The notes under the pieces are model-generated. The model was not told the origin of the DNA. It ran no database searches and saw nothing but the letters and a program-made list of their open reading frames with translations. Shown one piece after another: positions 4,268 to 25,067 of a stretch of DNA of 64,000 nt (positions are counted from its first letter, which is position 1; each line of letters starts with the position of its first letter). The stretch comes from Embleya scabrispora (GTDB lineage: Bacteria; Actinomycetota; Actinomycetes; Streptomycetales; Streptomycetaceae): assembly GCF_002024165.1 (NCBI RefSeq), contig NZ_MWQN01000001.1, forward strand, positions 1,488,001 to 1,552,000. Reading direction: 5' to 3'. Position numbers and translations under genes: made by a program.

Positions 4268-5494
4268 TTAGACGGCCTCGCGCTCGACAGGGCAACTCAT
4301 GCAGCGCGGTCCGCCGCGGCCGCGGCCGAGTTCGCTGCCGCGGATGGTGACCACCTCGATGCCGTTCTTGCGCAGGAAGGTGTTCGTGGTGACGTTGCGT
4401 TCGTAGGCGAAGACCACGCCGGGCTCCACGGCCAGTACGTTGCACCCGTCGTCCCATTGCTCGCGCTCGGCCGAGCGCACGTCCTGGGTGGCGGCCAGGA
4501 CCCGGATGTCGGACAGGTCCAGCGCGCTCGCGATCGCCTTGTGCATGTCGTGGGCGGGGTGGTCGGTGACCTTGAGCGCCTCCTCGTCGTCGCCCGGTTC
4601 GATCGTGTACGAGGGCAGCATGCCCATGCCCGCGTACTTGGTGAACGTCTCGCCGTCGAGCATCGTCATCACCGTGTCGAGGTGCATGAACGCGCGCTTC
4701 TTCGGCATGCTCAGCGCCACCACCTTGGTCGCGGAGCCGTGTTTGAACAGCGCCCGCGCCAGCGCCTCGACACCTTGCGGGGTGGTGCGCTCGCTCATGC
4801 CGACCAGGACCGCGCCGTTGCCGATGACCAGGACGTCGCCGCCCTCCATCGTCGCGGGGAAGCTGCTCTGGCCGGGGTTCCACACGTTGAAGTCGCCCTT
4901 GGCGAAGTTCGGGTGGTAGGTGTAGATCGCCTCGAAGTGCACCGTCTCGCGCCGGCGGGCGGGCATCGTCATGGCGTTCACCGCGACGCCGTCGTAGACC
5001 CAGCACGAGGTGTCGCGGGTGAAGATGTGGTTGGGCAGCGGTTTGAGCACGAAGTCGTCCACGTCCATGGTGTGGAAGGCGACGCTGCGTGGCTCCTCCA
5101 GGTATTCCAGGATCTCCCGCTTGGTGATCCCGCCGACCAGGTAGCGCACCAGTTCGTTGACGTCGAAGCCCTCGAACAGGCCGCGCAGTTCGTCCACCGC
5201 GAGCAGGCCGAACTCGCGTTCGTCGAAGACCCGGTCCAGGACCATCTTCTTCGCCGGCGGCTCGCTCGCGAGGGTCTCGCGCAGCAGGTCGGTGAACAGG
5301 TGTACGCGGATGCCCCGATCGCGCAGCGCGTCCGCGAAGCCGTCGTGCTCCTCGCGGGCCCGCTTGACCCACAGGACGTCGTCGAACAGGAGTTCGTCCT
5401 TGTTCGTCGGGGTCAGGCGTTTCATCTCCAGGTCCGGGCGGTGCAGGATCACCTGCTTGAGACGACCGGTCTCCGACTCGACGTGGAACCCCAT
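4268..5494 (-). CDS. arcA: Arginine deiminase
   Basis: 408 residues, typical length. Hydrolyses L-arginine to citrulline and ammonia. Landmarks: N-terminal [30 protein letters not shown] (~155-170), the [10 protein letters not shown] acidic segment, [13 protein letters not shown] with the catalytic His region (~270-285), and [10 protein letters not shown] at the C-terminus with the catalytic Cys. The start at 5494 follows a clear AGGAGG. It lies 121 bases after the permease gene and 141 bases before arcB. Confidence 0.96.
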
Positions 5495-7327: not shown

Positions 7328-9928
7328 TCAGAGTCGCGGGTCCACCGGTTCCGATTCGAGCGCGAGTACGGCGAAGACCGCCTCGTGCACGCGCCACAGC
7401 GCCTCGCCGGACGCGAGCCGCGCCAGCGCCTCCGCGCCCAGCGCGTGCTCGCGCAGTGCCATCGAGCGCTTGTGGCCGAGACCACGATCGCGCAGCCGGT
7501 CGAGGTTCGCCGGTTCGGTGTAGTCGGCGCCGTAGATGATCCGCAGGTACTCCGGGCCGCGGCACTTGACCCCCGGCTGCACGCGCCGGTTGGCGACTCG
7601 GTCGGCCTCACCCGCGAGCGGCTTGACCACCATGCCCTCGCCGCCGGTGGAGGTCAGTTCGGTCCACCAGGCGATGCCGGCCGCGACCTGCTCGTCGTCG
7701 GTGACGTCCACGACCAGTCGCCCGGTGGGCGCGAGCAGCCCCGAGGGGTCGGCCGCGACCAGCCGGTCGGCGAGCGCGAGGTGCCACTCGTGGTCGCGGT
7801 CCAGGTAGGCGCCGCCGCGGCCGGCGAGCACCTGGAACGGGGCGAAGCGCAGTCCGGTCAGGCCGTCGGTGGGCCAGCAGTACCGGCCGTAGGCGTCCAC
7901 GAACGCGCGGGCGTTGGCCGTGCGTCCGGCGATCCGGTCGGCCAGGTCCCCGACGTCGATACCGCGTTCGAGTGCACGCGCCAGCGCGGCGCCGGCGACC
8001 GGCAGCGCGGCGGTCGCGGCCGCGCCCACCGACGCGTACTGCTGCCGCAGCAGCTCCTGCGCCTTGGCCGACCAGGGCATCAACTCGGCGTCGAACAGCA
8101 ACCAGTCGGTGTCCAGTTCGGCCCACAGGCCGGCCGCGTCGATCGCCCCGCGCACGCGGTCGAGGAAGCCGTCGGTGGTGGTTTGGTCGGGGAAGAAGCC
8201 GCGCCCGGTGCGGGTCCACACCGCGCCCGCGCCCATTCCCTCGTCCACGCCGAACGCCTCGCGTGCGACGGCCTCGTCCCGGCACACCAGGGCGATCGCA
8301 CGCGAGCCCATGTGCTTCTCCTCGCAGATCACCCGGGTGACGCCGTCCGCACGGAACTGGGCGAACGCCTCGGCCGGGTGTTCGAGCAGACCGGGCAGCG
8401 TGCTCGTGGCGCACGGCGCCATCGTCGGCGGCAGGTAGACCAGCCAACGCGGGTCGATGGCGAATCGGCTCATCACCTCCAAAGCTGCGGCCGCGTTCTC
8501 CTGGCGCACCGTCACCAGGCCGGCGCCGGCGGTCTCGATGTGCCGGCGACCGATCCCGCCGGGGGCAAGGTCCAGCACGTCGCCGAGGTCGAGGGCGCGC
8601 CCGTCGCGACCGCCGGGGGCGGCGGAGACGAGCGGTCGCACCGGCTCGTACCAGACCTGCTCGGCCGGTACCGCGACCAGTTCGCGCTCCGGCCAGCGCA
8701 GCGCGGTCAACGCGCCGCCGAACACCGCGCCGGTGTCCAGGCAGATCGTGTTGTTCACCCACACGGCGCGCGGCGTGGGCGTGTGACCGTAGACCACGGT
8801 GGCCTTGCCGCGGTATTCGTCAGCCCACGGGTAGCGCACCGGCAGGCCGTACTCGTCGGTCTCGCCGGTGGTGTCGCCGTACAGCGCGAAGCTGCGCACG
8901 CGCCCGGACATCCGGCCGTGGTACTTCTCCGGCAGGCCGGCGTGGCACACCACGAGCCGACCCCCGTCGAGCACGTAGTGGCTGATCAGGGATTCGCAGA
9001 AGTCGACGACCTCGGCGCGGAACTCCTCGCTCTCCGCGCCCAGTTGTTCGAGCGATTCGGCGAGGCCGTGGGTGGTCTTGACCTGGCGACCCTTGAGCGC
9101 GCGCACCAGCTTGTTCTCGTGGTTGCCCGGCACGCACAGGGCGTGTCCGGCGCCGACCATGCCCATCACCAGGCGCAGTACGCCGGGCGTGTCAGGCCCG
9201 CGGTCGACCAGGTCGCCGACGAACACGGCGGTGCGGCCCTCGGGGTGCGCCGCGTCGACCGGTCGCCCGGCCTCGTCGCGGGTGAGCGCGTATCCGAGTT
9301 CGACCAGCAGCGACTCCAATTCGGCCCGGCAGCCGTGGATGTCGCCGATCACGTCGAACGGGCCGGTCAGGTGTCGCAGGTCGTTGTAGCGGCGCTCGTG
9401 GACGATCTCGGCGCGCGCGACCTCGTCGGTGCCGGAGAGCACGTGCACCTTGCGAAAGCCTTCGCGCTGGAGACCGCGCAGCGAGCGGCGCATGTCGCGG
9501 TGTTGGCGCTGGATCACCTGCGGGGGCAGGTGCATGCGGTCCGGGCGCTCGGCGTTGCGCGCCTGGCATTCGTCCTGGGGTATGTCCAGCACGATCGCGA
9601 CCGGGAACACGTCGTGGTCGCGGGCGATCCGGACCAGTTGCGCCCGGGCCTCGCGCTGCACGTTGGTCGCGTCCACCACGGTCAGCCGGCCGGAGGCGAG
9701 GCGCATGCGGGCGACGTGGTGCAGCAGTTCGAACGCGTCGCCGGAGGCCGACTGGTCGTTCTCGTCGTCGGCGACCAGGCCGCGGAAGTAGTCGGAGGAG
9801 AGCACCTGGGTGTGCTTGAAGTGGGTGCGGGCGAAGGTGGACTTGCCCGCGCCGGTGGTGCCGATCAAAACCACCAGACACAGGTCGGGCATGGTCAGTG
9901 CGCGGCGGGCGCTCGCGTCGTGGGTCAT
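7328..9928 (-). CDS. pnkp: Bacterial Pnkp: polynucleotide kinase-phosphatase with C-terminal ligase-type domain
   Basis: 866 residues, matching the ~870-residue bacterial Pnkp. Repairs cleaved RNA: 5'-OH kinase, 2',3'-phosphatase and adenylylated end-joining module. Domains: kinase with P-loop IGTTGAGKST (residues ~22-31); calcineurin-like phosphatase with GDIHGCRAE, GDLVDRGPD and GNHENK; nucleotidyltransferase/ligase with EEKHMGSRAIALV (motif I Lys), GEGMVVKP (motif IV) and GVKCRGPEYLR (motif V). All catalytic motifs appear intact. The ATG at 9928 overlaps the Hen1 stop as ATGA, so translation is probably coupled. It is the last gene of MerR-hen1-pnkp, ending at a canonical terminator. Confidence 0.95.
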   Translation of the reverse strand: MTHDASARRALTMPDLCLVVLIGTTGAGKSTFARTHFKHTQVLSSDYFRGLVADDENDQSASGDAFELLHHVARMRLASGRLTVVDATNVQREARAQLVRIARDHDVFPVAIVLDIPQDECQARNAERPDRMHLPPQVIQRQHRDMRRSLRGLQREGFRKVHVLSGTDEVARAEIVHERRYNDLRHLTGPFDVIGDIHGCRAELESLLVELGYALTRDEAGRPVDAAHPEGRTAVFVGDLVDRGPDTPGVLRLVMGMVGAGHALCVPGNHENKLVRALKGRQVKTTHGLAESLEQLGAESEEFRAEVVDFCESLISHYVLDGGRLVVCHAGLPEKYHGRMSGRVRSFALYGDTTGETDEYGLPVRYPWADEYRGKATVVYGHTPTPRAVWVNNTICLDTGAVFGGALTALRWPERELVAVPAEQVWYEPVRPLVSAAPGGRDGRALDLGDVLDLAPGGIGRRHIETAGAGLVTVRQENAAAALEVMSRFAIDPRWLVYLPPTMAPCATSTLPGLLEHPAEAFAQFRADGVTRVICEEKHMGSRAIALVCRDEAVAREAFGVDEGMGAGAVWTRTGRGFFPDQTTTDGFLDRVRGAIDAAGLWAELDTDWLLFDAELMPWSAKAQELLRQQYASVGAAATAALPVAGAALARALERGIDVGDLADRIAGRTANARAFVDAYGRYCWPTDGLTGLRFAPFQVLAGRGGAYLDRDHEWHLALADRLVAADPSGLLAPTGRLVVDVTDDEQVAAGIAWWTELTSTGGEGMVVKPLAGEADRVANRRVQPGVKCRGPEYLRIIYGADYTEPANLDRLRDRGLGHKRSMALREHALGAEALARLASGEALWRVHEAVFAVLALESEPVDPRL

Positions 9929-11895
9929 GCCGTCGCTCCGGTGCCTTCGTCGTCGGTGGGGGTGGTGGCGGGGGTGTCGGTGGTCGCGGGGGTGTCGCCG
10001 GTGTGGGTCGCCTCGCCCGCGCCGGCGTCGGTACGGGTGAACACGACCATCTGGGTGGAGGGGCCGACCTCGGGGTCGACCTCGCCGACCGGTTCGAAGC
10101 GTGTCGTGTAGCCGTAGATGGCGGCCGCTCGTTCGGCCCAGGCACGAAACGTCGCGCGGTCCCATTCGAAGCGGTGGTCGCCGTGGCGCATGGCGCCGGC
10201 GGCAAGGCCGTGGCCGCCCGGTTCCTCGGCCGCGTAGCGGACGTTGTACTCGACGTTGGGCGTGGTGACCACGACCGTCGCGGGTCGGGCCGCGCCGAGC
10301 ACCGCGTGCTCCAGGGCCGGCAGACGCGGTTCGTCCAGGTGCTCGATCACCTCGCACAGCACCGCCGCGTCGTAGCCCACGAGCCGCTTGTCGGTGTAGG
10401 TCAGCGCACCCTGGATCAGGCGCACCCGATCGCGCTGCCGCTCCGACATCCGGGCGAGCTTGAGCTTGCGCTCGGCGATGGTGAGCGCGCGGACGGACAC
10501 ATCGACGCCGACGATCTCGCGGAAACGCGGTTCCCTGAGCAGGGCCCCGATCAACTTGCCGTCGCCGCACCCGAGGTCGAGCACCCGTTCGGCGCCGGCC
10601 GCCCGCAGGGCCTCCAGGATCGCGTCCCGCCGCTGCCGGGCAAGCGACAGGCCGGCCCCGCCGGCGACCTCGACCGCAGACGCGTCCGCAGGGACGGAGG
10701 TCCCGCTCGCAGACGACACGCCACCGGTCGCGGGCACAGACGCAGGCACAACACCCGACGCCACAGGCACGGACGCACCCTCCGCAGGCGCACCCGCAGA
10801 CGCGACGCCCGGGCTCTCAGGCGCAACCGCAGGCGCAACACCTGCGGTCTCAGCCGCACCCGCACCCGCACCCGCAACGCTCGACACCGCAGGTACGGAC
10901 GTAGCCGCCGCAGGCGCACCCGCAGGCGCGGTGCCCGAGGTCTCACCCGCACCCGCGGGTGCAAGACCCGAGGTCGCGGGCACGGACGCAGCGGTTGCGG
11001 GCGTCGGCGCACCCTTCGCAGGCGCGTGCCCCGCAGGCGCAGGCGCGGCGCCGGCGCTCGCGACCGCAGGCCCCGCCGGTCCCTGCTCCGGTTCCTCGTC
11101 CGGCTCGTCCGGTATCGCGTTGTCCAGGTCTTCCGGTGCGGTCTCGTCGACTTCGGCCAGGCGTTCGATCGCGCTGCGGGTGAGAGTGGGTCGGCGTGCG
11201 AGGTATCGGCTCGCGATCAGGTCACGGTCCGGGTGTGCGGCCAGCCAGCCCTCGCCGGCGCGGAGCAGCTTGTCCACCTCGTCCGGCGCGACCCAGTAGT
11301 GCTTCGCGTTGTCCAGCACCGGAAGCAGCACGTACAACTGCCGCAGCGCCTCCGCGAGCGGCATGGTGCCGGTCAACGCCAGCCGCACGTAACGCGACTC
11401 ACCCCACTCCGGGAAGCCCGCGTCCAGCGGCACGGTCTCGGTCCGCACCTGCCACCCCAGCGGCTCGAACAACCGCCGGACCATCTCCTCGCCCCCGCGC
11501 GCGGACAGCGCGGGCACCTCGATCTCCAGCGGCAGCGCCATCGCGGGCAGCTCGGGGCGCGCGTCGCAGCGCCCCTGCATCGCGGTGCGAAAGACCGTGC
11601 CGAGCGCGACCGCGAGCAACGACGAGGCGGCGTAGGGCCGGTCGTTGACGTACTGCGCGAGCGTGAGGTCGGGCGAGCCCTTGGCTCCCTTGCCCCGCTT
11701 GACCCCGCGCGTGAGCGCGATCGGGTCGACGTCGAGCAGCAGCGCCGCGGTGCAGCGCGCCTCGTCCGCCTCGGGGTAGAAGACGTGGGCCTCGCCATAG
11801 GTGGTGGAGAACCGCTGGGCCTTCCCGGGATGCTTGTGCAGCAGGAAGCCGAGGTCGGTGGCGGGCCGATGCGTGGTGGCGATGGTCAGGAACAC
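9925..11895 (-). CDS. hen1: 3'-terminal RNA ribose 2'-O-methyltransferase Hen1
   Basis: 656 residues, distinctly longer than the roughly 480-500 usual for actinobacterial Hen1. Methylates the 2'-OH at the 3' end of cleaved RNA before Pnkp seals it, protecting the repaired site. The N-terminal Pnkp-activating/ligase-partner domain is about residues 1-265 (FLLHKHPGKAQRF, VFYPEADEARCTAALLLDVDP). The C-terminal SAM methyltransferase is about 415-630, with LDLGCGDGKLIG, the metal-site CEVIEHLDEPRL and HRFEWDRATF. Between them lies a ~140-residue Ala/Pro/Gly/Val/Thr linker, and the tail has TPATTDTPATT repeats. GTG start at 11895, 8 bases after the MerR gene. Confidence 0.94.
   Translation of the reverse strand: MFLTIATTHRPATDLGFLLHKHPGKAQRFSTTYGEAHVFYPEADEARCTAALLLDVDPIALTRGVKRGKGAKGSPDLTLAQYVNDRPYAASSLLAVALGTVFRTAMQGRCDARPELPAMALPLEIEVPALSARGGEEMVRRLFEPLGWQVRTETVPLDAGFPEWGESRYVRLALTGTMPLAEALRQLYVLLPVLDNAKHYWVAPDEVDKLLRAGEGWLAAHPDRDLIASRYLARRPTLTRSAIERLAEVDETAPEDLDNAIPDEPDEEPEQGPAGPAVASAGAAPAPAGHAPAKGAPTPATAASVPATSGLAPAGAGETSGTAPAGAPAAATSVPAVSSVAGAGAGAAETAGVAPAVAPESPGVASAGAPAEGASVPVASGVVPASVPATGGVSSASGTSVPADASAVEVAGGAGLSLARQRRDAILEALRAAGAERVLDLGCGDGKLIGALLREPRFREIVGVDVSVRALTIAERKLKLARMSERQRDRVRLIQGALTYTDKRLVGYDAAVLCEVIEHLDEPRLPALEHAVLGAARPATVVVTTPNVEYNVRYAAEEPGGHGLAAGAMRHGDHRFEWDRATFRAWAERAAAIYGYTTRFEPVGEVDPEVGPSTQMVVFTRTDAGAGEATHTGDTPATTDTPATTPTDDEGTGATA
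10657..11085. repeat. Low-complexity repeat insertion encoding the Hen1 linker
   Basis: Degenerate hexamers (variants of gcaggc and gcaccc) stay in frame across residues ~271-413 of Hen1 and encode Ala/Pro/Gly/Val/Ser/Thr only. The composition resembles the intergenic stretches at 0.3-0.7 kb and 30.4-30.6 kb. Confidence 0.7.
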
Positions 11896-13008: not shown

Positions 13009-13395
13009 TCACCAGTCGTCGGGCTCGGTGACGGTCAGCAGGCGGACGAATCTCTCGTAGGACACCTGGCAACTCTCCAGGCGCTCATAGGTTCGGGCCG
13101 ACAACGCGACGGGGGCGCTGGGTTCGAGAGCAACACTCCAGAACCAGCCCGGCGCCCCCGTCGCCCGTCCGATGACGGGTACCAGGTCCACGACCCGGCG
13201 ACGCAGCCGGTCGAGCTCGATGCGGCAGGCCCCCGCCGTGACATGGCCCCGAGCGGACCGCGCGAGCACGCGGCCGTTCGGGGCGATGAGCCGCCACCGC
13301 ACGTGCTGCTCGGCGTCCAGGTGGACGTCGTAGCGCGCGTGCCGTTCCGGCGTACCGTCCGGGGCCTGCGACTCATCCGAAGCGACCGGCGACAT
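13009..13395 (-). CDS. Small YegP/DUF1508-like protein at the end of the pst operon
   Basis: 128 residues, soluble. The segment [19 protein letters not shown] then [15 protein letters not shown] resembles the YegP/DUF1508 fold (strand-turn-strand with a WR.. motif and NG). The C-terminal half ([19 protein letters not shown]) is not recognised. ATG at 13395 lies inside the 3' end of pstB, a 23-base overlap in another frame; no strong ribosome-binding site was identified, so coupling to pstB is likely. The role is unknown. The family call is tentative, the gene call firmer. Confidence 0.6.
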
Positions 13396-14224
13396 AGTCG
13401 GCCGTCCGGGGGTCGCGGGGGGCACCGAAGATCGCGGTGGTGGGTCCGTCCTCGACGATGTGGCCGGGGGTGTTCTCCGCCGCGAGGAAGAACGCACAGT
13501 GGTCGGATACACGTTGGGCCTGTTGCATGTTGTGCGTGACGATGACGATGGTGACCTGGTCGCGCAGCTCGCCGATGGTGTCCTCGATCCGCCTGGTGGA
13601 GGTCGGGTCCAGGGCCGAGCACGGCTCGTCCATGAGCAGCACGTCCGGGTCGACCGCGAGCGAACGGGCGATGCAGAGACGTTGCTGCTGGCCTCCCGAC
13701 AGCGCGCCGCCGGGTTGCCGGAGTCGATTGCGCACCTCCGTCCACAGGCCGGCCCGGGTCAGCGAGGACTCCACGACGGCGTCCTTGTCCGCGTTGCGCA
13801 CGCCGGTCAGTTTGAGGCCGGCGACCACGTTGTCGTAGATGGACATCGCCGGGAACGGGTTGGGTTTTTGGAAGACCATCCCGACCCTGCGCCGGGTCTC
13901 GATCGGCCGGCGGGCGGAGTCGTAGATGTCCTCGCCGTCGAGCAGGACCCGGCCCGCGAGTTGGGCGCTGGGTACCAGTTCGTGCATCCGGTTGAGGATG
14001 CGCAGGAACGTGGATTTGCCGCAGCCGGACGGCCCGATCAGGGCCGTGACGGAGTTGGCCGCCATTGCGAGGTCGACGCGTTCGAGCACCTTGTGGGTGC
14101 CGAACCAGGCGCTGACGGCCTCCGCGGTGAGCGTCGAGCCACGCCCGCCGGCGGATTGAGCCGGTAAGGGCTGGGTCTCGGCTGCGGGGGCGAGAGTCGT
14201 CGCACCGCTGTCCGGGCTGGTCAC
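13373..14224 (-). CDS. pstB: Phosphate ABC transporter ATP-binding protein
   Basis: 283 residues with a ~35-residue Pro/Gln-rich N-terminal extension ahead of the ATPase. Energises phosphate import through PstCA. Walker [13 protein letters not shown] (~70-81), Q-loop [12 protein letters not shown] (the PNPF form is PstB-specific), signature [16 protein letters not shown], Walker [14 protein letters not shown] and switch [11 protein letters not shown] are intact. GTG at 14224 is preceded by GGAGG with 8-base spacing. It is separated from pstC/pstA by three surface-protein genes, which is not the usual pstSCAB order. Confidence 0.95.
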
Positions 14225-14265: not shown

Positions 14266-15240
14266 TCAGAGCGTTGCCGGGAGTACGCGTGCGGCGGATT
14301 CGTACAGTGCCCACACGACGGCGAGCACGACCGGGGTGCCGAGCAGGAGCGTGACTCGGCGATCGGGGTGACGGCGCAGGGCCCAGACCAGGACGGCGAC
14401 CACGATGGTGAACGCCTGCGCCCACAGGAGCAGTCGCACGCCGGCGTCGGCGTAGCCGCCGGTGCCCTTCTCGTCCGCGCGTAGACCTTGCGGACGCCGG
14501 CCCTCCTGGGCCTTGGGGGCGCCCTGTAGTTCGGCGACGACGACCGTGCGGCCGCCGGGGCGGATCCACGAGTCGGCGGTGATCAGCACGAGTCGGTTCT
14601 CCCGGCCGGGCGCGAGCACGTCGTCCTTGCCGTTGGCGATGTGCCTGCGCTCGATCACCTTGTAGGTGAAATCGCCCTGCTGGGTGGTCGCCTCGATCCG
14701 CTGGCCGACGCGCAGGTGGTCGAGGTCGTGGAACGGGCCGCCGAAGCTGTACGCGCGGCCCATGATCACGCTGTGGCCGCCCTGCCCGGGCAGGCCGCTG
14801 GTGCGCAGGTGTCCGGGGCCCTTGGCGAGCGAGTCGGCGGTGGTGCCCTCGACCACGACCTGGCGCAGGCCGATCGCGGGGATCCGCAGCATCGCCACCG
14901 GCTTGCCCTTGGCGATGGTGCCGCCGAGGGGGGCGACGTCGCGGTAGAGCTCGTCGGAGAGTCGGTCGGCCAGGATGCTCTGGTCGCGGGCCTGTTGGAT
15001 GTCGGAGACGACGTACACGTAGCCGACGAAGCCCGCGATGAGCAGTGCGAGCAGTGCGACGGCGGCGCCCGCGACGGTGTACGGGTCGGTCCGGCTCGCG
15101 CGGGCGCCGCCTGCGGTCGCCGGCGCCTGCCCGCCGGCGCCGGCGCCTGCGGGTGCGGTCGCGGTCGCAGGTGCGGGTGCGGTCGCGAGGGCGGTCGCCG
15201 GCGCGGTCGCGGGGACCTTGGAGACGGTGTCGGCGGTCAT
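14266..15240 (-). CDS. Sortase-fold membrane protein lacking the catalytic His and Cys (pseudo-sortase)
   Basis: 324 residues: an Ala/Pro/Thr repeat N-terminus (~1-45), TM1 ([20 protein letters not shown]), an extracytoplasmic sortase domain (~100-240), then two C-terminal TM segments. The fold is recognisable from [37 protein letters not shown] and RTVVVAEL. Where class E sortases have a GH(R/N) catalytic His, this protein has SVIMGRAYS. Where they have TxTC, it has VLITADS, so Cys is replaced by Ala. The Arg near RTVVVAEL is kept. Transpeptidase activity is therefore unlikely. ATGA overlap with the upstream binding-protein gene; 41 bases before pstB. Confidence 0.8.
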
Positions 15241-17509
15241 GCGGGCACTCCCTGGCGACCGATCAGGCGCAGGACGGCGGCCACCGGTGGCGGCCAGTTG
15301 CCGGTGCGGCGTTTGTGTCCGAGGGAGAGCAGTACGGGGCAGGCGAGGAGTGCACCGGCGCTCACGCACATCAGGACGAGCAGCACGATCGCGGATCCGT
15401 CGCCGTCGAGCGCGTCCTTGATCACGTTGGCGGCCGACGTCAACGCCCCCTTGCCCGCCGGCGGTGCGGCGGCGCCCACCGGTGCGGTGGAGGGTGCGGC
15501 GCTCGGCGCGGCCGTGGGCGAGGCGCCGGGATCGCCGGCGGCCGGGGTGTTCGGGATGCCGGTGTTGCCGGCGCTCGTGCCCGCGGAGGTGCCGGTGTTG
15601 TCGTCGGTGTTTGCGTTCCCGGGCGGGTTGGTGGGCGGCGGGGTTTCCCCGGTCCACTTGGGCGCGTCGGCGATCTTCTTGCGGGCATCGGCGATCTGTT
15701 GCTTCTGCGCGTCGGTGAGCGGGGTGTAGCCGGGGGGCAGTGCGCCGGGTTGGAAGGTGCCCGTCTGCGTCTGCCCGGCGGTCGCCGCGTAGGCGAGGAA
15801 GGCGTCGATCTTGGCGGCCTTGGCGGCGGTGAGCTTGTCGGTGGAGATCATCGCCACGTCGGTGGCGGTGAGTGGGTAGGCGTTCGCGGCGGTGCTGCGG
15901 TAGTCGTTGGTCAGCGTCGCCCCGTCCGGGCCGGGCTTGGCGGCGGCGAGTCCGGCGCGCACGCTCGCGGGGTCGGTCGGGTCCACGAAGTTGCCCGCGG
16001 CGTTGCGGAGCTTGGCGACCGGCGTGCCCATGCGCAGCGCCGCCTCGGCCGAGGTCACGGCCATCACGGTGTGCGAACCGAACGCGTCCTGGCCGTCGTC
16101 CTTGGGTCCGAAGTCGCCCACGGTGCGGTTCATCGGCAGCGCGTTGCCCAGGCGGTTGACGATGTCCTCGTACACCGTCTGCGGCACGTTGACGTTGGAC
16201 TGGGGCTCCAGGCGGTTGGTGTACACCGCCAGCGGGTATGTCGCCGCGCCGACGCGCCACTCCGGCGGGCACACGATGCCGTTGGCGTCCGGTGTTCCGG
16301 AGAGCCATGTGGCCGTTTCCGGGTCGGCGGCGAGCCAGGCGGTGAGTGCCCAGATCATGTCGTCCTGGACGCCGCGCAGGATCGGGCTGCGGTCGGCGAC
16401 GGGCCAAGTGTGTGGCTCGTTGACGGCCTTGAACTCGGGGTCGTCGTAGACCTTGATGATCGCGCCCGGCCCTCGCGGCCCCGTGGTGTAGGCCCCGGTG
16501 ATCATTTTCGCGACCAGGCGGGGGTCAGGTTCATCGCCGTGATCGGTTCGTGGGTGCCGGCGTCGTCGATGTTGAACGAGATGGCCAGCGCGCCGTTGGT
16601 CAGCGGCGCGTACACCGTCTTGTCCTTGTCCCGGGTGCCGGTGAGCGCCACCGGACGTGCCTGGTCGAGGGCGCCGCCGATCGGTTGCTGGGTGACACCG
16701 ATGTCGGCTCCGTCCCGGAGGAAGACCTCGCGGGCGTTGGGGCCGGAGCCGGAACTGACCGTCATGTTGACGGGGTTGGTCCGCGCGCCGCACAGCCCGA
16801 ACACCCATGAGGCGCCGGCCTGGGAGAATTCGCCGGTGCCGGAGACCGACAGGTCCGGGTGTTCCATGCCGGGGCACGCGTCGGGCGCGGGGATGAACGA
16901 CAGCGGTGTCACCGCCGCCTGTCCGGCGGCGAAGGCCAGGTCCATCTCGGTGTCGGTGATCTGGTACTGGACGCCCAGGTCGATGTGTTGCTTCGGCTGG
17001 AAGGAGGTGGCGGTACTGCCCGCCTCGGGCATCACGAATGCCACGACCGAACACGCCTGTCGGTCCGAGCACCCCAGTTGCGGCAGTCGCAGCGCCGGCC
17101 TGACCTGGAGCCACGCCTCTCCGGATCCGTCCGCGCGGGTGGGCACTCCGGTCTGCTTGGTGGCGAGAATCGGCGGGTTGCCGTCGGGTTGCCGGAAGAC
17201 GCCGTTCTCCGTGTAGGTCGGCGACCAGCAGTCCCGAGACCGGGGCGTGGTGCCCTTGCACTGCATCACGACGATGCTGTTGGTGCCGGCGGCCAGGGTG
17301 AAGCCGGTCCATTTCACCAGGATGCGCTGGTTGACCAGGTTGGTGCTCTGCGACACCGTCACCGTCGGGCGGGCTGCGGGCTCGGCCGCGCCCGCCGACC
17401 CGGCGACCGCGCCGAGCCAGCCCGCGAGCAGCGCGACGCACAGCGCGACGACGCCGGCGACGGACAGCGCACGGCCCGGCGAAGCGGTGGAACGCTCGAT
17501 GCCGCTCAC
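15237..17509 (-). pseudogene. Membrane-anchored PstS-like binding protein, interrupted by a one-base frameshift
   Basis: Two frames join into one product of ~757 residues: 16502-17509 (335 aa) and the frame running 16500 to 15237. The first part starts at GTG 17509 with a signal peptide (SVAGVVALCVALLAGWLGAV), an Ig-like VTVSQSTNLVNQ segment and Cys-containing strands. It stops right after MNLTPAWSRK. The next frame continues RLVAKMITGAY, exactly the PstS-like continuation, so one C is missing in the C5 run (G run 16520-16524 on the plus strand). The second part holds the rest of the binding domain, a Pro/Asn/Thr/Ala stalk and a C-terminal TM anchor with basic tail. A real mutation, a consensus error or -1 slippage are all possible. 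Confidence 0.75.
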
Positions 17510-17702: not shown

Positions 17703-19319
17703 TCAGCGGACATCGGGGCCACGTCCTCGACCGAGTCGGCTGTACAGGAACGGCGCGCCGAACACCGCGGCCATCAGGCACACCAGGGTGAGTGCGTAGA
17801 ACCAGACCGGCGGCAGCGGCGGCGAGTCGCCGGCTTCCACCGATCCGGCGCTGATCGGCCCGCCGGGACCGGACTTGTCGCCGCCGGCCAAGACTTCGCC
17901 GGTGCCCTGGTCGAGGGTGGCCCCGCCGCCGGTGTCGGGTCCCTGGGTCCCGCCGGTTCCGCCGCCTGCGGCGCCCGGCGTGTCTCCGGGCTTGGGCGTG
18001 TTGCCGCCGGCGCCGTTGGTGGTGCCGTTGTTCTGGTTGTTGGAGCCGCCCGGACCGCCCTGCTGGGGTTGCTGCTGTTGCTGCTTTTGCTCCGGCGGCA
18101 CCCACGCCGGGTCGAAGGTCGGGTTCGGGCAGGCGTCGTGGTCGGCCTTGGTCGGCTTGTCCAGGTTCGCCGGCAGTGTTCCCGGGTCCGGCGCGCCGGG
18201 GATAGACTTGATCGCGTCGTAGCCGAAGCTCACCAGCTTGGGGGGCAGCGGCGAATATCCCAGCCGTGGCGCCTGTCCCTGCCCGGCGCACAGGAAGTAT
18301 TTGATGAACTTGCCGAGCGTTTCGCCCTTGGACTCGTCGAAGGAGAACTGTTTGGCGGCCGGCACGATCATGTAGCTGTAGCTGGAGATCGGATAGGCGC
18401 GCTTGTCCGGGTTGGTGTAGACGTCGTCCAGGATCTGCGTGCTGTCCGGGTTCAGCCGGGCCTTGGTGAGCGCGATCGACACCGCGTCCGAGCTGGGCTG
18501 GGTGTAGACGCCGGCGACGTTCTTGACGGAGGCGACCGGGAATTGCCGCTGGATCGCGTAGGCGGTCTCGACGTAGGTGATGGCGCCCTCGCCGTATCCG
18601 GCCGCGACGTAGTTGGCCACGCCCTCGGAACCGGCCTGCGCCTTGGTAGCTCCCTTGACCGGGAACTCGGAGGTCATGCCGCCGGGAAAGAACGGCCGCC
18701 AGATGTCGTTGACCTGGTTGGTCAAGAAGGCGGTGAACTGCGCGCTCGTGCCCGAGCCGTCCGAGCGCACGACCGGGGTGATCGGGGTGGCGGGCAGGGA
18801 CAGGGCCGGGTTGTCGTCCTTGATCGCCTTGTCGTTCCACACCCTGATCTGGTTGGTGAAGATCCCGGCGATGGTGCGCGGCGACAACTGGAGGTTGCGG
18901 ACCTGCTGGCCGCGGATCTTCAGGTTGTACATGAACGAGGTGCCGCCCGCGACGATCGGCAGGTACTTGAACTTCGTGTTGTCGTTCTGCAGGCGCGCGA
19001 GTTCGTTGGTCGCCTGTCCTGCCCGGTCGACGTAGTTGCCCTGGAAGGGGATCTCCGAGACCGCGAAGTCGACCAGGTGGCTCATGAAGTCGTTGCGTCC
19101 GGCGGTGGATCCGTTGGGGGTGTAGTCGACCGCGAGGCCGCGGGCGGCGACGTCGGCCGACCACTGCATGGTCGCGGGCGAGCTCCAGGTGGAGCCGCTG
19201 CCGTGGATGCCGGCGGCGGCCGAGGCGGTGCCGGACGGCAGGACGAGCAGGGGGACGGCGAGCACGGACGCGATCGCCACGCGTAGCAGGTGCGCGGGCA
19301 GGCGCGTGGTCCTGGTCAT
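17703..19319 (-). CDS. pstS: Membrane-anchored phosphate-binding protein PstS
   Basis: 538 residues, far longer than the usual ~370-residue PstS lipoprotein. Signal peptide ~1-35 without a lipobox Cys. Binding domain ~36-385 with IHGSGSTWSS, DFAVSEIPF and the phosphate loop RSDGSGTSAQF. A Gln/Gly/Asn/Thr stalk (~395-500, including QKQQQQQPQQGG) precedes one C-terminal TM segment (VWFYALTLVCLMAAVFG) and a basic tail. The stalk would hold the domain away from the membrane through thick peptidoglycan. ATG at 19319 overlaps the pstA stop (ATGA). Confidence 0.9.
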   Translation of the reverse strand: MTRTTRLPAHLLRVAIASVLAVPLLVLPSGTASAAAGIHGSGSTWSSPATMQWSADVAARGLAVDYTPNGSTAGRNDFMSHLVDFAVSEIPFQGNYVDRAGQATNELARLQNDNTKFKYLPIVAGGTSFMYNLKIRGQQVRNLQLSPRTIAGIFTNQIRVWNDKAIKDDNPALSLPATPITPVVRSDGSGTSAQFTAFLTNQVNDIWRPFFPGGMTSEFPVKGATKAQAGSEGVANYVAAGYGEGAITYVETAYAIQRQFPVASVKNVAGVYTQPSSDAVSIALTKARLNPDSTQILDDVYTNPDKRAYPISSYSYMIVPAAKQFSFDESKGETLGKFIKYFLCAGQGQAPRLGYSPLPPKLVSFGYDAIKSIPGAPDPGTLPANLDKPTKADHDACPNPTFDPAWVPPEQKQQQQQPQQGGPGGSNNQNNGTTNGAGGNTPKPGDTPGAAGGGTGGTQGPDTGGGATLDQGTGEVLAGGDKSGPGGPISAGSVEAGDSPPLPPVWFYALTLVCLMAAVFGAPFLYSRLGRGRGPDVR

Positions 19320-20497
19320 GAAGTGGGCTCCGGGGTGGGGGACTTGGCGGCGGCGCCGGCGCGGCGCCGCTTGCGGCGTCCGGACTCGCCGGGGCCGCGA
19401 CCGCCGATCAGGCGCGCGAGGGAGAACAGCACGAGGACGATGAGCAGCAGGGTCACGGCGGCGCCCCACGCGAGGGAGTTGAGCTCGTCGCTGGGCGACT
19501 TGTAGTTCACCCAGATGAAGTACGGCAGGGAGGTCTGCACTCCGCTGAACGGGTCCCAGTTCATGCCCGCGCCGCCGCCCGCGACCAGCAGTACGGGCGC
19601 GGTCTCGCCGACCACGCGGGCGCAGCCGAGGATGACGGCGGTGACCAGGCCGCTGCGCGCGGTGGGCAGTACCACGTTCCACAGGGTGCGGAACTCCCCC
19701 GCGCCCAGGGCCAGGGACGCCTCGCGCAGGCCGTTGGGCACCAGGCGCAACACCACCTCGGTGGCGCGGGTGACCACGGGCATCATCTCCACGGACAGCG
19801 CCAGGCCCGCGGCCAGGCCGCAAAAGCCCTGGCCGAGCGAGATGACGAAGAAGGCGTAGACGAACAGGCCCGCGACCACCGAGGGGATCGCGGTCATCGC
19901 CTCGACGACCACGCGCACCACGACGGCGAACCGGCCGCCGACCTCGTTCATGTAGATCGCGGCGATCACCCCGAGCGGGACGCTGAGCAGGATCGCGATG
20001 CCCATCTGTTCGAAGGTGCCGACGATCGCGTGTGCGGCGCCCACCGAGACCCCGTGCGGGCTCAGCGCGCTGAAGTGGCGCTGGGTGGCGGTGAAGAAGT
20101 CGGTGTTCAGGATGCGGCCGAAGCCCTTGACGAAGACGTAGCCGATCACGGTCGCCACCGTGCCGACCATCAGGGCCGCGCCGGTGGAGATCACCGCGCC
20201 GGCGACCCGGTCGCCGGCGGCCACCCGGTCCAGGCGCATGTGGGTGGCGATCGCGTACAGCAGCAGGAAGCCGAGGTAGGCGGTGATCAGGTAGCCCTGC
20301 CAGCCGGCGACCGGCAGGATCCGCCCGTACAGCACCCACGCGAAGCTCGCGCCGGCGACCATGGCGCCGAGCGCGACGCCGATGTCGTCGGGGGCGACGC
20401 GGCGCAGCGCCACGCGGGCCTGCTCCGGTGGTCGCGGCGCGGACGCGGGCGGCGGCGCGTCGGGCCCGGGCCGAACGATCGGCTCGGTGACGGTCAT
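19316..20497 (-). CDS. pstA: Phosphate ABC transporter permease
   Basis: 393 residues, with an N-terminal extension of about 90 residues and extra hydrophobic segments before the conserved permease core. BPD_transp_1 features: QMGIAILLSVPLGVIAAIYMNE, EAMTAIPSVVAGLFVYA and the EAA loop LREASLALGAGEFRTLWNVVLP, followed by ARVVGETAPVLLVAG. Pairs with PstC to form the channel. ATG at 20497 follows GAGGGGATCC. A Lys/Arg-rich C-terminal tail ends at the pstS start. Confidence 0.93.
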   Translation of the reverse strand: MTVTEPIVRPGPDAPPPASAPRPPEQARVALRRVAPDDIGVALGAMVAGASFAWVLYGRILPVAGWQGYLITAYLGFLLLYAIATHMRLDRVAAGDRVAGAVISTGAALMVGTVATVIGYVFVKGFGRILNTDFFTATQRHFSALSPHGVSVGAAHAIVGTFEQMGIAILLSVPLGVIAAIYMNEVGGRFAVVVRVVVEAMTAIPSVVAGLFVYAFFVISLGQGFCGLAAGLALSVEMMPVVTRATEVVLRLVPNGLREASLALGAGEFRTLWNVVLPTARSGLVTAVILGCARVVGETAPVLLVAGGGAGMNWDPFSGVQTSLPYFIWVNYKSPSDELNSLAWGAAVTLLLIVLVLFSLARLIGGRGPGESGRRKRRRAGAAAKSPTPEPTS

Positions 20498-20625: not shown

Positions 20626-21642
20626 TCAGATCTCGGTGGACTTGCCGCTGCGCGAGCGGGCGACCAGGACGCCGGCGACGGTGTTCACGGCGAGCGTGAG
20701 GACGAACAGCGCGAGGCCGGCGGCCATCAGCGCGGAGATCGACTCGGTGTCGGCCTCGCCGTACTTGAGCACGATCAGCGACGAGATCGTCGAGCCCTGG
20801 CCGTCGAGGATGCGGAACGAGAAGTCGGTGTTGAACGAGATGATCATCGCGACGGCGATGGTCTCGCCGAGGGCTCGGCCCAGGCCGAGCATCACGCCGC
20901 CGATCATGCCGCCGCGGCCGAACGGCAGGACCACCGCGCGGATCACTCCCCAGCGGGTGGCGCCGAGCGCCAGCGCGCCCTCCTTCTCGCCGATCGGCGC
21001 CTGGCCGAACACCTCGCGGCTGACCGCGCAGCAGATCGGGATGACCATCGTGGACACCACGACGCCGGAGATGAACAGCGAGGAGCTGAACTGGCTGTCC
21101 ACGAAACGGGCCTTCACGTCGATCGTGCGGATCTCGAAGATCGGCAGGAAGTCGAAGTTGGTGGCCAACCACCGGCTGACCGGGATCAGTTGGGGTTGCA
21201 GTACGAAGAAGCCGAAGATGCCGTAGATGATGCTGGGCACCGCGGCCATCAGGTCGACGATCGAGGTGAGCACCCCGCGTAGACGTCGTGGGGCGAACTC
21301 GGTGATGTACAGGGCGGCGGTGAGCGCGATCGGTACCGCGACGATCAGCGCGACGATGGCCACGAGCACGGTTCCGGTGAGCAGTCCGCGTACGCCGAAG
21401 GTGCCGCCCTTGGGTTCCCACGCGTCCTCGGTGAGGAATCCCCAGCCGGCTCGGTCGAGCGCGCTGCTGCCCTGGTAGAGCAGGTAGCCACCGATCGCCG
21501 CGAGCAGAGCCAGGACCAGCATCGCGACACCACGCGTGGTCCAGCGGAACACGTGGTCGGCCCTGGTGCGACGGACCACGATCCGGCGGGGCCGATCGGC
21601 CGGCTCCGGCGATTCGGGGGCGAACACGGTCGGGTGTGCCAT
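20626..21642 (-). CDS. pstC: Phosphate ABC transporter permease
   Basis: 338 residues, six core TM segments. PstC hallmarks: an N-terminal TM, GTVLVAIVALIVAVPIALTAALY, DLMAAVPSIIYGIFG, the EAA loop KEGALALGATRWGVIRAVVLP and GRALGETIAVAMII. First gene of the operon, read leftwards. ATG at 21642 follows AGGAG. A 128-base gap containing a small hairpin (CGGGAC/GTCCCG) separates it from pstA. Divergent from the secreted binding-protein gene at 21995, so the shared 352-base region probably holds the control sites. Confidence 0.94.
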   Translation of the reverse strand: MAHPTVFAPESPEPADRPRRIVVRRTRADHVFRWTTRGVAMLVLALLAAIGGYLLYQGSSALDRAGWGFLTEDAWEPKGGTFGVRGLLTGTVLVAIVALIVAVPIALTAALYITEFAPRRLRGVLTSIVDLMAAVPSIIYGIFGFFVLQPQLIPVSRWLATNFDFLPIFEIRTIDVKARFVDSQFSSSLFISGVVVSTMVIPICCAVSREVFGQAPIGEKEGALALGATRWGVIRAVVLPFGRGGMIGGVMLGLGRALGETIAVAMIISFNTDFSFRILDGQGSTISSLIVLKYGEADTESISALMAAGLALFVLTLAVNTVAGVLVARSRSGKSTEI

Positions 21643-21994: not shown

Positions 21995-22987
21995 ATGTCC
22001 AGCGTCTTCAGCATGCGCAAGACCGCCACCGTTTTGGGCACCGTGGGTGCCGCCATGGCGCTCGTCGTCGGCGCCAACGCGTCGGCCAACGCCAACACCT
22101 ACGTCAACGCCGGTTCCGACACCCTCCAGAACGTCACCCAGGCGCTGACGACGGAGTACGCGGCGAACGTCGATCCCGATGGCAACGACTGGGTGACGGT
22201 GAACGCCGGCATAGCCGCCGGTGGCATCAACACCGGCAAGGCCGAGTGCAACACCCAGTACGGCGCCGGCACCGGCCACGCGTGGCCGAACGGCTCGGGT
22301 GACGGCATCAAGGCGCTGCTGGACCAGCGTGCGGGCACGAACGCCAAGTGCCTCGACTTCGCCCGTTCCTCGCGTGGCCCGAAGACCGGCACCGCCGAGA
22401 CCACCTTGACCTTCGAGCGGGTCGCCGGCGACGCCGTGACCTGGGCGACCAAGAAGGCCGGCGCGCCGACCAACCTGACCCGCACCCAGCTGCAGGACAT
22501 CTACCACTGCAACATCACCAACTGGAACCAGATCCCGGGCAGCACCGTGTCCGGCGTGATTCAAAAGCACATTCCGCAGGCCGGCTCGGGCACCCGCTCG
22601 GAGTTCCAGGACAAGGTGCTCGGCTTCGACCCGACCGCCGCCTCCAACGGCGCGTGCGCCGCCACGGTTATCCAGACCGCGCAGGAGAACCGCGGCGACG
22701 CGCCGCAGATCACCTCCACCGACGCGATCATCGCCTACTCGGCCGCGGCCTACGGCGAGCAGACCACCCCCGCGTCGGGCGTGACCAACCACACCAACGG
22801 CTTCAAGCTCGGCAACATCGACTCCAAGGCCCCGAACGCGACCGGCTTCGTCGGCAACCGCTCGGTGTACTTCGTCTACGACCCGCAGAACGGCACGGCG
22901 GCCAACGCCAACGTCGTCGCCTTCATCAACTGGGCGAAGAACCCGGCTCAGCGCCCGATCTGGAACACCTTCGGCTTCGCCGTCTGA
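21995..22987 (+). CDS. Secreted PstS-like substrate-binding protein
   Basis: 330 residues. Signal peptide ~1-33 (VLGTVGAAMALVVGANASANA). Periplasmic-binding-protein type II core of the PstS group: YVNAGSDTLQNV replaces the GSSTV loop, then CLDFARSS, TRTQLQDIYHC with NITNW, and an intact QAGSGTRSEF anion loop. No C-terminal anchor and no lipobox, so it is probably released or wall-associated. Ends with FINWAKNPAQRPIWNTFGF. Begins at ATG 21995; ATG 22013-region alternatives exist and a strong ribosome-binding site is not obvious. Divergent from the pst operon. Confidence 0.8.
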   Translation: MSSVFSMRKTATVLGTVGAAMALVVGANASANANTYVNAGSDTLQNVTQALTTEYAANVDPDGNDWVTVNAGIAAGGINTGKAECNTQYGAGTGHAWPNGSGDGIKALLDQRAGTNAKCLDFARSSRGPKTGTAETTLTFERVAGDAVTWATKKAGAPTNLTRTQLQDIYHCNITNWNQIPGSTVSGVIQKHIPQAGSGTRSEFQDKVLGFDPTAASNGACAATVIQTAQENRGDAPQITSTDAIIAYSAAAYGEQTTPASGVTNHTNGFKLGNIDSKAPNATGFVGNRSVYFVYDPQNGTAANANVVAFINWAKNPAQRPIWNTFGFAV

Positions 22988-23086: not shown

Positions 23087-24103
23087 GTGTCGAAGCGTTC
23101 AGGCATCCGCGGGATCGGAACGGCGATGGCGGTTTTGGGCACCGCCATGGCACTCGTTGTCGGCGCCGACGCCTCCGCGGTCGCGGACACGCATGTCAAC
23201 GGGGGTGCCTACACCCTCGAAGACGTCACCAGGATGCTGACGACGGATTACGAGGCCAACGTCGACCCGAGCGGCAGTGTGTGGATAACCGTGGGCTCCG
23301 GTACCTCTCGCGGTGGAATCGACACCCACAAGGCGGCGTGCGACGCCGACTACGGCATCCATGGCCCGGCTTCCCGTTGGCCGGGGATCGAATATTCCGC
23401 GACTCGGACCCTGCTCGATCAGCGCGCGCACATTCGGGAGAACTGTCTCGACTTCGCCCGCGTATCGGGAGCCACCTTCCACCCCGACAGTGACGAGACG
23501 TCGCTGACGTGGGTTCGGGTGGCCGGAGACGCGGTCACATGGGCAACGGGAAAGGCCGGAGTACCGAGCAACCTGACCCGAGGGCAGCTTCAGGACATCT
23601 ACCGCTGCAACTTCACGGACTGGAGTCAGATTCCGGGGAGCAGCGCGTCGGGACCCATCCAGAAGTACCTGCCCACCGGCCGCTACTCGGATGTCCGCGC
23701 GGTTTTCGTCCAGTACGTACTCGGCTTCGACCCGACCCAGCCCGCCAACGGTCCCTGCGCCGCGACCGTCGCCGACGCTCCGGGCGAAAACCGGGGTGAC
23801 TACGTCACTTCGCCCAACGCGATCCTGCCGTACACGAAGTCCGCGTACAGCGCGCAGAAGAACCCCCTGTCCGGTGTCCCCGACCACACGGGGGGCTTCA
23901 GGCTCGGCAACATCGACGGCAGGGTTCCCGGCCAGGGCCGCACCGATGGCGGCGACCCGAACGCCTTCGTGGGCAACCACAGCGTCTACTTCGTCTACGA
24001 CCCGTTCAGGGGCGCGGCCAACGCCGCTACCGTCGACTTCATCAACTGGGCCAAGGATCCGGCACAACGCGTGGTCTGGGCCACGTACGGCTTCCTGCCC
24101 TGA
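23087..24103 (+). CDS. Diverged tandem paralogue of the secreted PstS-like protein
   Basis: 338 residues, GTG start with AAGGGAG just upstream. Collinear with the preceding gene: same signal peptide (LGTAMALVVGADASA), same LTRGQLQDIYRCNFTDW region, same FINWAKDPAQRVVWATYGF ending. The anion loop GSGTR of the first copy is replaced by PTGRYSDVRAVF, and the first loop reads VNGGAYTLEDV rather than VNAGSDTLQNV. Phosphate binding by the usual residues is therefore doubtful. A decoy, regulatory or new-ligand role is possible. Older duplication than recent copying, judging from the many substitutions. Confidence 0.8.
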   Translation: MSKRSGIRGIGTAMAVLGTAMALVVGADASAVADTHVNGGAYTLEDVTRMLTTDYEANVDPSGSVWITVGSGTSRGGIDTHKAACDADYGIHGPASRWPGIEYSATRTLLDQRAHIRENCLDFARVSGATFHPDSDETSLTWVRVAGDAVTWATGKAGVPSNLTRGQLQDIYRCNFTDWSQIPGSSASGPIQKYLPTGRYSDVRAVFVQYVLGFDPTQPANGPCAATVADAPGENRGDYVTSPNAILPYTKSAYSAQKNPLSGVPDHTGGFRLGNIDGRVPGQGRTDGGDPNAFVGNHSVYFVYDPFRGAANAATVDFINWAKDPAQRVVWATYGFLP

Positions 24104-24293: not shown

Positions 24294-25067
24294 ATGAAGC
24301 TCCGTCGTCTGCTCGCGCTCGCCGTCGCGGTTCCGGCCGCGTTCGCGATCGCCACCGTGCCGGCCGTCGCCGAGGACTTCGCCCCCGCCGCGCCCACGAG
24401 CGCCGCGCAGGGCACCGTCTCGGTGAGCCCGCTGTACGGTCCGGCCGACAGCACCGGCAAGGCGACCGCCCGGGCGAGCGTGCCGTGCGGCCCGGACGCG
24501 ACCAAGTTCCGCTTCGTCCTGCGTTCGCCCGGCGCCAACGAGCGTGTGTTCGGCGGCTCGTTCCTCGGCACCGACCTGCCGGCCGACAAGGTCGCGGACA
24601 CCGCGGTCGTCGGTCTGCGCGCGCTGTTCCCGGCGGGCTCCGCCGCCCAGGAGGGCGTCGCGCACAAGCTGGTCGCGCAGTGCTACACCTTCGACGCCGA
24701 GGGCGCGCTGACCATCACCGAGCCGGCGTCGGTCGACCTGCGCGTCAACAACGGTGTGTGGACCTCGCTTTCGCCCGAGGTGCGCGCGCTGCCGACCAAG
24801 ATCGGTGCGCTGCGCTTCGGTCTGGTCCTGTTCCGCGGCTTCGCGCCCGGTGACCGCGTGGACGGCGTCGTGCGCGCCGCCGACGGCACCTCCACCCCGG
24901 TCTCGTTGCAGCCGCAGATCACCCCCGACGGCACCTGGGGCGGCGCGCTGCTGACGCTGCCGGCCAACCTGGCCGACGGCTCCTACACCCTCGTGCTCTC
25001 GGGCACGAACTCGCACGCGACCTCCTCGGTCGCGATCACCCTCGACTCGTCCCGCCTGTGGTGGTGA
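24294..25067 (+). CDS. Secreted two-domain protein of unknown function
   Basis: 257 residues, not a family I recognise. Signal peptide ~1-26 (LLALAVAVPAAFAIATVPAVA). Domain A (~38-155) has two cysteines (ASVPCGPDATKF and LVAQCYTFDAEG) and ends with VDLRVNNGVWTSL. Domain B (~165-257) is Ig-like (GSYTLVLSGTNSHATSS). The same A and B modules occur in the next gene. No anchor or sorting signal, so secreted. Start at ATG 24294 after GGAAGGG. Terminator-like hairpin follows. Confidence 0.75.
   Translation: MKLRRLLALAVAVPAAFAIATVPAVAEDFAPAAPTSAAQGTVSVSPLYGPADSTGKATARASVPCGPDATKFRFVLRSPGANERVFGGSFLGTDLPADKVADTAVVGLRALFPAGSAAQEGVAHKLVAQCYTFDAEGALTITEPASVDLRVNNGVWTSLSPEVRALPTKIGALRFGLVLFRGFAPGDRVDGVVRAADGTSTPVSLQPQITPDGTWGGALLTLPANLADGSYTLVLSGTNSHATSSVAITLDSSRLWW

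Follow-up and report, generated by a model that had tools for sequence, protein, structure and literature searches.

What does a protein with a sortase fold do inside a phosphate-type transport operon when the catalytic residues of a sortase transpeptidase are missing? The question is raised by one gene in the 64,000-nucleotide stretch of DNA analysed here (the window), which an earlier note, made from the sequence alone, had read as a pseudo-sortase serving surface phosphate-binding proteins as a scaffold or peptide-binding partner. Sortases are described as enzymes. We examined the fold, active site, relatives and genomic neighbors of the pseudo-sortase, and they point to a protein that probably belongs to a transporter.

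A sortase fold inside a second pst operon

The pseudo-sortase begins with an Ala/Pro-rich N-terminus, followed by a helix (res. 60–78), the sortase domain (res. ~110–240), and two C-terminal helices (res. 270–288 and 296–314) that lead into the tail LPATL. The protein passes both the Sortase family PF04203 (1e-20, 74.2 bits, cut-off 26.6) and TIGR01076 (47.8 bits, cut-off 39.35), and sortases top both structure-match lists (Foldseek and VIA) obtained with its AlphaFold model (29 sequences, pLDDT 71.9, pTM 0.64). Sequence and fold thus place it in the sortase superfamily, and the clear sortase fold described in the earlier note is borne out. The model is weakest near the active site, with pLDDT below 50 at model residues 164–166 and 224–227; model numbers run one lower because the window protein entered alignment A1 without its first Met. 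The highest Z score goes to 4d70, a class D sortase from Clostridium perfringens (Z 20.2, rmsd 2.6, 154 residues), which, unlike the pseudo-sortase, keeps GHR and VTC in the alignment, and the score against the NCBIfam class D model is 55.2 against a cut-off of 165.

The gene lies in a minus-strand operon with the order pstC, pstA, pstS, stalked gene, pseudo-sortase, and pstB (Table 1). This is the place that the earlier note gave it, between anchored phosphate-binding proteins and pstB, although in this assembly a frameshift splits the stalked gene. Four-base-pair overlaps join pstA to pstS and the stop of the stalked gene to the start of the pseudo-sortase (15237–15240). All four pst genes are present together, making this a Pst operon; its PstB scores 341.5 bits against TIGR00972, 1.7 under the cut-off of 343.2. 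The window PstS, in which no lipobox was seen, matches the phosphate-binding structure 8ods at 4.5e-36 and keeps the RSDGSGT motif. Because it is this close to solved phosphate-binding proteins, its ligand is likely to be phosphate or a like anion.

Table 1. Features of the operon and of the pseudo-sortase active site, in window coordinates
Feature	Position	Strand	Basis or remark
pstB-like ABC ATPase, next downstream of the pseudo-sortase	13373..14224	−	ABC_tran 1.9e-31; GTG start by eye
Pseudo-sortase, 324 aa	14266..15240	−	ORF and translation
Codon of A222 (catalytic Cys position)	14575..14577	−	Alignment, residue number converted to coordinates
Codon of R162 (catalytic His position)	14755..14757	−	Alignment, residue number converted to coordinates
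Stalked protein	15237..17509	−	Two ORFs here; a single ORF in both E. hyalina and E. scabrispora
pstS with long stalk and C-terminal transmembrane helix	17703..19319	−	PBP_like_2 3.2e-37
pstA permease	19316..20497	−	1.7e-67 to canonical pstA of the same genome
pstC permease	20626..21642	−	BPD_transp_1 4.9e-12; 1.3e-78 to canonical pstC
Divergent PstS-like binding protein, no C-terminal anchor	21995..22987	+	PBP_like_2 7.8e-14

A canonical pst operon, whose PstS carries a lipobox, lies elsewhere in the same genome (~G000:C1:2945.7–2949.9 kb), near genes that by eye resemble ppk and pit. Measured against this canonical set, the window operon is a second one that holds homologues of all four parts of the high-affinity PstSCAB phosphate importer (E 3e-29 to 4e-106), but its PstS has a transmembrane stalk in place of a lipobox, and the stalked protein and pseudo-sortase are extra. 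A scan of 40 stretches with one simple PHO-box-like repeat pattern gave no match in the window and one upstream of the canonical pstS (L073); it says little about regulation, since five further matches fell in three other stretches (L057, L100, and, with three, L096, where one lies immediately beyond the pseudo-sortase gene).

Relatives of the divergent PstS-like protein are present in 17 of 42 loci, the window included. Here it is followed by a similar protein (23126–24103) and by two proteins with no Pfam family above cut-off (24294–25067 and 25166–26770). Elsewhere in the window, two adjacent genes at 7328–11895 have what we take to be a resemblance to the Pnkp-Hen1 RNA repair pair. The sole RNA-family match of the window, to the Rfam ASdes sRNA (55108–55175; 79.4 bits, 2.1e-17), lies far from the pst operon and opposite an ORF at 54555–55505 (−), and may simply reflect coding sequence.

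Loss of the catalytic residues across the family

Aligned with sortases that carry GH and TTC, the pseudo-sortase places R162 at the catalytic His site (MGRAYS, from residue 160), A222 at the Cys site (LITADS, from residue 219), and R231 at the Arg site. The GRAYS and ITADS readings of the earlier note are thereby confirmed, and its statement that only the Arg side remains holds for this copy, with R231 in place, but fails for the family, where Arg persists in just 7 of 44 members. The Cys-to-Arg spacing in the window copy is 9, equal to that of Streptomyces coelicolor SrtE1, whose catalytic residues are given as C320 and R329 in PMC5148588. The whole protein is devoid of Cys, the alignment places no second His at the active site, and an alternative His/Cys pair, looked for there by alignment, is absent. 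The only widely conserved His of the domain, H144 in the GxGH motif, is common to pseudo-sortases (37/42) and comparison sortases (29/31).

The GxGH and GxPF motifs are shared with the class E sortases S. coelicolor SrtE1 (5cuw) and S. avermitilis SrtE (5go5), the latter matching the model with a Z of 18.6 and an rmsd of 2.1 over 131 residues. Unlike class E enzymes, the pseudo-sortase lacks the His, the Cys, and the class E Tyr, and it has two C-terminal helices and a pst operon around it. SrtE1 Y229, described in PMC5148588 as the Tyr that reads the LAXTG signal in class E, was matched by hand count to position 145, where Tyr occurs in none of 42 pseudo-sortases versus 21 of 31 comparison sortases. 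With this residue absent from all 42 and a score of 72.7 bits against a cut-off of 160 for the class E model NF033747, the class E label does not fit.

The earlier note had proposed searching for a family without His and Cys beside pst genes, and such a family exists. We searched 143 distinct genomes (41 near relatives, 50 drawn from the class, and 60 from the phylum) and took as members relatives at E 2e-29 or better, all of which were inspected. This yielded 44 copies in 34 actinobacterial genomes, 43 of them pst-linked. The His position holds Arg in 41 copies, Lys in three, and His in none; the Cys position holds Ala in 23, Gly in 12, Ser in seven, and Thr in two; the Arg is lost from 37, and no sortase domain among the 44 contains a Cys. 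No intact active site was found among these copies, whether pst-linked or at a contig end. The 59 comparison sortases (57 weaker search rows and two from the same genome) have His in 56, Asn in two, and Asp in one at the first position; Cys in 51, gaps in five, and one each of Gly, Ser, and Asn at the second; and Arg in 51 with eight gaps at the third, some gaps being alignment faults, as in L109 and L146, where TTC is visible. Judged from these residues, there is strong support for the conclusion that the window protein cannot work by the known sortase mechanism, and hence for the view of the earlier note that it is not a transpeptidase: no second His/Cys pair takes over in the alignment, and none of the 44 relatives found is intact.

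An active transferase that uses another nucleophile, a Ser or Thr near the old Cys, would be very improbable. The seven Ser and two Thr at the Cys position could speak for it, but 35 of 44 copies have Ala or Gly there and 37 have lost the Arg; the adjacent T221 position carries Thr or Ser in 41 of 42 copies, yet it is mostly Thr in intact-Cys sortases too. No Ser, Thr, or Cys is invariant at the site, and we rejected an alternative nucleophile.

Degenerate sortases also occur outside the family, which is therefore not alone in having lost catalysis. L121/L135 (G096) have His replaced by Asn and Cys by Ser, and L151 (G110) has Asn at both positions; L121 and L151 pair on the tree with full support. 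Single losses are seen in L037 (G010; Cys to Gly) and L122 (G114; His to Asp).

Selection, new conserved residues, and the C-terminal tail

As judged from aligned sequences, the pseudo-sortases form one group on one side of a tree branch. A tree built without the active-site columns separates 40 copies from 14 others by one change (support 100/99, stem 0.79), and a quick tree of 44 copies and 59 others, based on few columns, also requires one change (SH-aLRT 84). Two copies, L131 and L132, come from outside the class of the window, and members of the family occur in two or more classes of Actinomycetota. Embleya hyalina (97% identical) and E. scabrispora (87%) carry the nearest named relatives; a pattern search for close relatives returned two loci, both Embleya. 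Five records in a plasmid collection match partially, none covering more than 80% of the query. The same genome has nine PF04203 places, the pseudo-sortase and eight others, and five of the nine are without a match to the profile of the pseudo-sortase family.

Within Embleya, the dN/dS of the pseudo-sortase is 0.16–0.34, indicating purifying selection; values within the genus are 0.07–0.09 for pstB, 0.12–0.19 for pstC, and 0.10–0.20 for pstS. The protein is constrained by selection, though less than these neighbors. Its frame is open in the three other Embleya found (80–97% identity; one ends at a contig end). A decaying pseudogene or a sequencing artefact could be suspected, as the adjoining stalked gene is frame-broken in the window assembly, but the purifying selection, the open frames, and the conservation beyond the class leave this reading next to no probability, and we rejected it.

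Residue counts at the old active site set 42 pseudo-sortases against 31 of the 59 comparison sortases. A basic residue occupies position 162 in 42/42 versus 0/31 (44/44 in the full family), Arg occupies position 146 in 35/42 versus 1/31 (37/44 in the full family), Ser position 157 in 36/42 versus 1/31, Met position 160 in 27/42 versus 0/31, and Pro position 228 in 41/42 versus 0/31, six of these 31 being gaps. Specifically, residue 160 is Met in 27 of the pseudo-sortases, Tyr in six, Leu in three, and Phe, Val, and Ala in two each, versus Ala or Ser in all 31 comparison sortases. The equivalent SrtE1 residue, Ala249, touches a bound peptide according to PMC5148588. We take the new conserved residues to suggest a new function at the old catalytic surface.

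One such function would be anion sensing, in which the Arg or Lys that replaces the catalytic His would bind a ligand, either phosphate or a wall polymer carrying phosphate groups, and the membrane helices would pass the signal on to the transporter. The invariant basic residue, the frequent Arg146, and the company of a phosphate-type transporter are compatible with this idea, which we nevertheless judge unlikely: no anion-binding motif was recognised, and the side chains were placed by alignment, not by coordinates.

All 44 pseudo-sortases end in (L/I/V/F/M)-P-x-x-x-COOH, with LPATL, LPNTL, or LPST(L/I) in some, a tail that resembles the LPxT core bound by sortases and that predicted topology puts on the outer face. 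Hydropathy segments vary over 42 copies (three in 21, four in 11, two in eight, five in one, and one in one), so that a count of three helices can be relied on only in the window copy and its model. Such a tail allows a frozen sortase to be imagined, with the fold as a permanent subunit of the ABC importer and the dead groove as a reversible latch; the groove might hold its own or a neighbor's tail, or the stalks of the binding proteins, and thereby assemble or gate the transporter. We regard this latch as a rather doubtful prospect. The idea is weakened by two sortases with similar ends, L149 (G102; LPGNY) and L125 (G107; MPPNY), which share the hydrophobic C-terminus, the P-x-x-x-COOH end, and the sortase domain but, unlike the pseudo-sortases, have intact GH and TTC. 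Because these intact proteins carry such an end, the tail either predates the loss of catalysis or is unrelated to it, and it may do nothing beyond packing against the membrane surface. The 16 kb around the L149 gene (7030–7915) hold no pstA, pstC, pstS, or stalked gene; both proteins are possible look-alikes of the pseudo-sortase ancestor.

Stalked partners and a probable place in the transporter

Linkage to pst genes extends to 43 of the 44 pseudo-sortases. Only L098 departs from this: its contig ends 87 bases upstream of the gene, and the 8 kb on the opposite side contain no pst gene. Gene order varies, with pstB first in L096, L097, and L101 and pstC after the pseudo-sortase in L131, and several operons have some other gene than pstS or the stalked gene directly beside the pseudo-sortase. 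The flanks of 11 comparison stretches (L103–L111, L135, and L149) contained, at the limits used, no pstA, pstC, pstS, or stalked gene, and three of them contained an ABC ATPase resembling PstB.

The stalked protein, of which 25 copies were aligned, consists of a beta-rich N-terminal part, a PstS-like fold, a low-complexity stalk, and a transmembrane helix. In the E. hyalina model (pLDDT 77.1), the PstS-like fold has 8ods as its best Foldseek match (3.7e-13), with a low-confidence stalk at res. 613–679 and a helix at res. 692–723. In the window, the gene is read as two overlapping ORFs with a frame break near 16520–16524, at a C run in the conserved LTPRLVAK motif. Either a mutation or a sequencing error could account for it; if the break is real, the complex may be incomplete in this genome. 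The stalked gene of L067 (G022) is broken near a run of eight C (4960–4967) at a nearby place in the protein.

The stalked protein was found in 22 of 41 near relatives, nine of 50 genomes of the class, and three of 60 of the phylum, 32 distinct genomes in all. Of the 34 genomes that have the pseudo-sortase, 32 also encode the stalked protein, compared with 0 of the 109 that lack the pseudo-sortase (Fisher 7e-30, a test that ignores kinship). The only genomes that have the pseudo-sortase without it, G036 and G054, are 77% and 78% complete. Copy numbers of the two proteins agree in 31 of 34 genomes, as counted by hand from listings with split matches taken as one, and in genera g6, g8, and g21 a genome has either both genes or neither. 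This co-occurrence, with the pst linkage, supports a role alongside surface phosphate-binding proteins, in which the pseudo-sortase may be the scaffold or peptide-binding partner proposed in the earlier note.

These binding proteins mostly lack sorting signals. A C-terminal helix is present in 29/29 PstS and 23/23 stalked proteins, counts that depend on our own simple gene finder (L094 and L095 were read with another script), and a simple pattern detected no lipobox in either set. An LxxTG-like string near the C-terminus appears in only one of 29 PstS, none of 23 stalked, and one of 15 free binding proteins. This bears on the possibility that the pseudo-sortase is a decoy or helper of true sortases that binds sorting signals or lipid II unreacted and so tunes the anchoring of surface proteins. 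The retained fold and the eight other PF04203 places in the genome would suit a decoy, but besides the scarcity of such strings, the signal-reading Tyr is gone from all 42 copies and 40 of them have Met, Tyr, Leu, Phe, or Val where SrtE1 has Ala249, which renders this an improbable account.

Sequence comparison establishes the sortase fold, the absence of His and Cys from every copy found, the single grouping on trees, and the association with pst genes and the stalked protein. Since the protein is dead, kept by selection, and pst-linked in 43 of 44 copies, and its partners mostly lack sorting signals, a non-catalytic part of the transporter is the best explanation. Specifically, we consider it probable that this sortase-fold membrane protein is an accessory component, either a subunit or an assembly factor, of a second Pst-type importer in actinobacteria. 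The pseudo-sortase would sit beside PstC and PstA with its sortase domain outside, keeping two transmembrane-anchored binding proteins, PstS and the stalked one, close to the permease. Contact would most likely be made through the former substrate groove, since new conserved residues have taken the place of the catalytic ones. The protein may clamp the binding proteins, gate the permease, or guide assembly, and a regulator would fit the operon position as well as a subunit or an assembly factor does.

Some related operons encode further surface proteins, a WxLIP_PGBD (WxLIP peptidoglycan-binding) protein in L062, L064, L069, and L094, and Big_3_5 Ig-like proteins in L062, L067, L069, and L094, hinting at a larger surface assembly. 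WxL/WxLIP surface complexes belong to Firmicutes; the likeness extends to the WxLIP_PGBD protein of these four operons, and none was seen in the window operon.

A search of the open-access literature (few subscription papers, no preprints) found no report of a pst-linked dead sortase; papers retrieved on inactive sortases dealt with Lactococcus pili, one on pseudoenzymes dealt with enolase, and the pseudo-sortase is not described in the portions of PMC13251363, PMC5148588, and PMC7866108 that we could consult. Counts of actinobacterial sortases may include inactive proteins, because PF04203 and TIGR01076 pass such genes. The pseudo-sortase marks a second, differently built Pst operon, and a group that is dead in 44 of 44 copies and tied to one transporter type would put the sortase fold to a non-enzymatic use and give ABC importers an accessory protein of a new kind.
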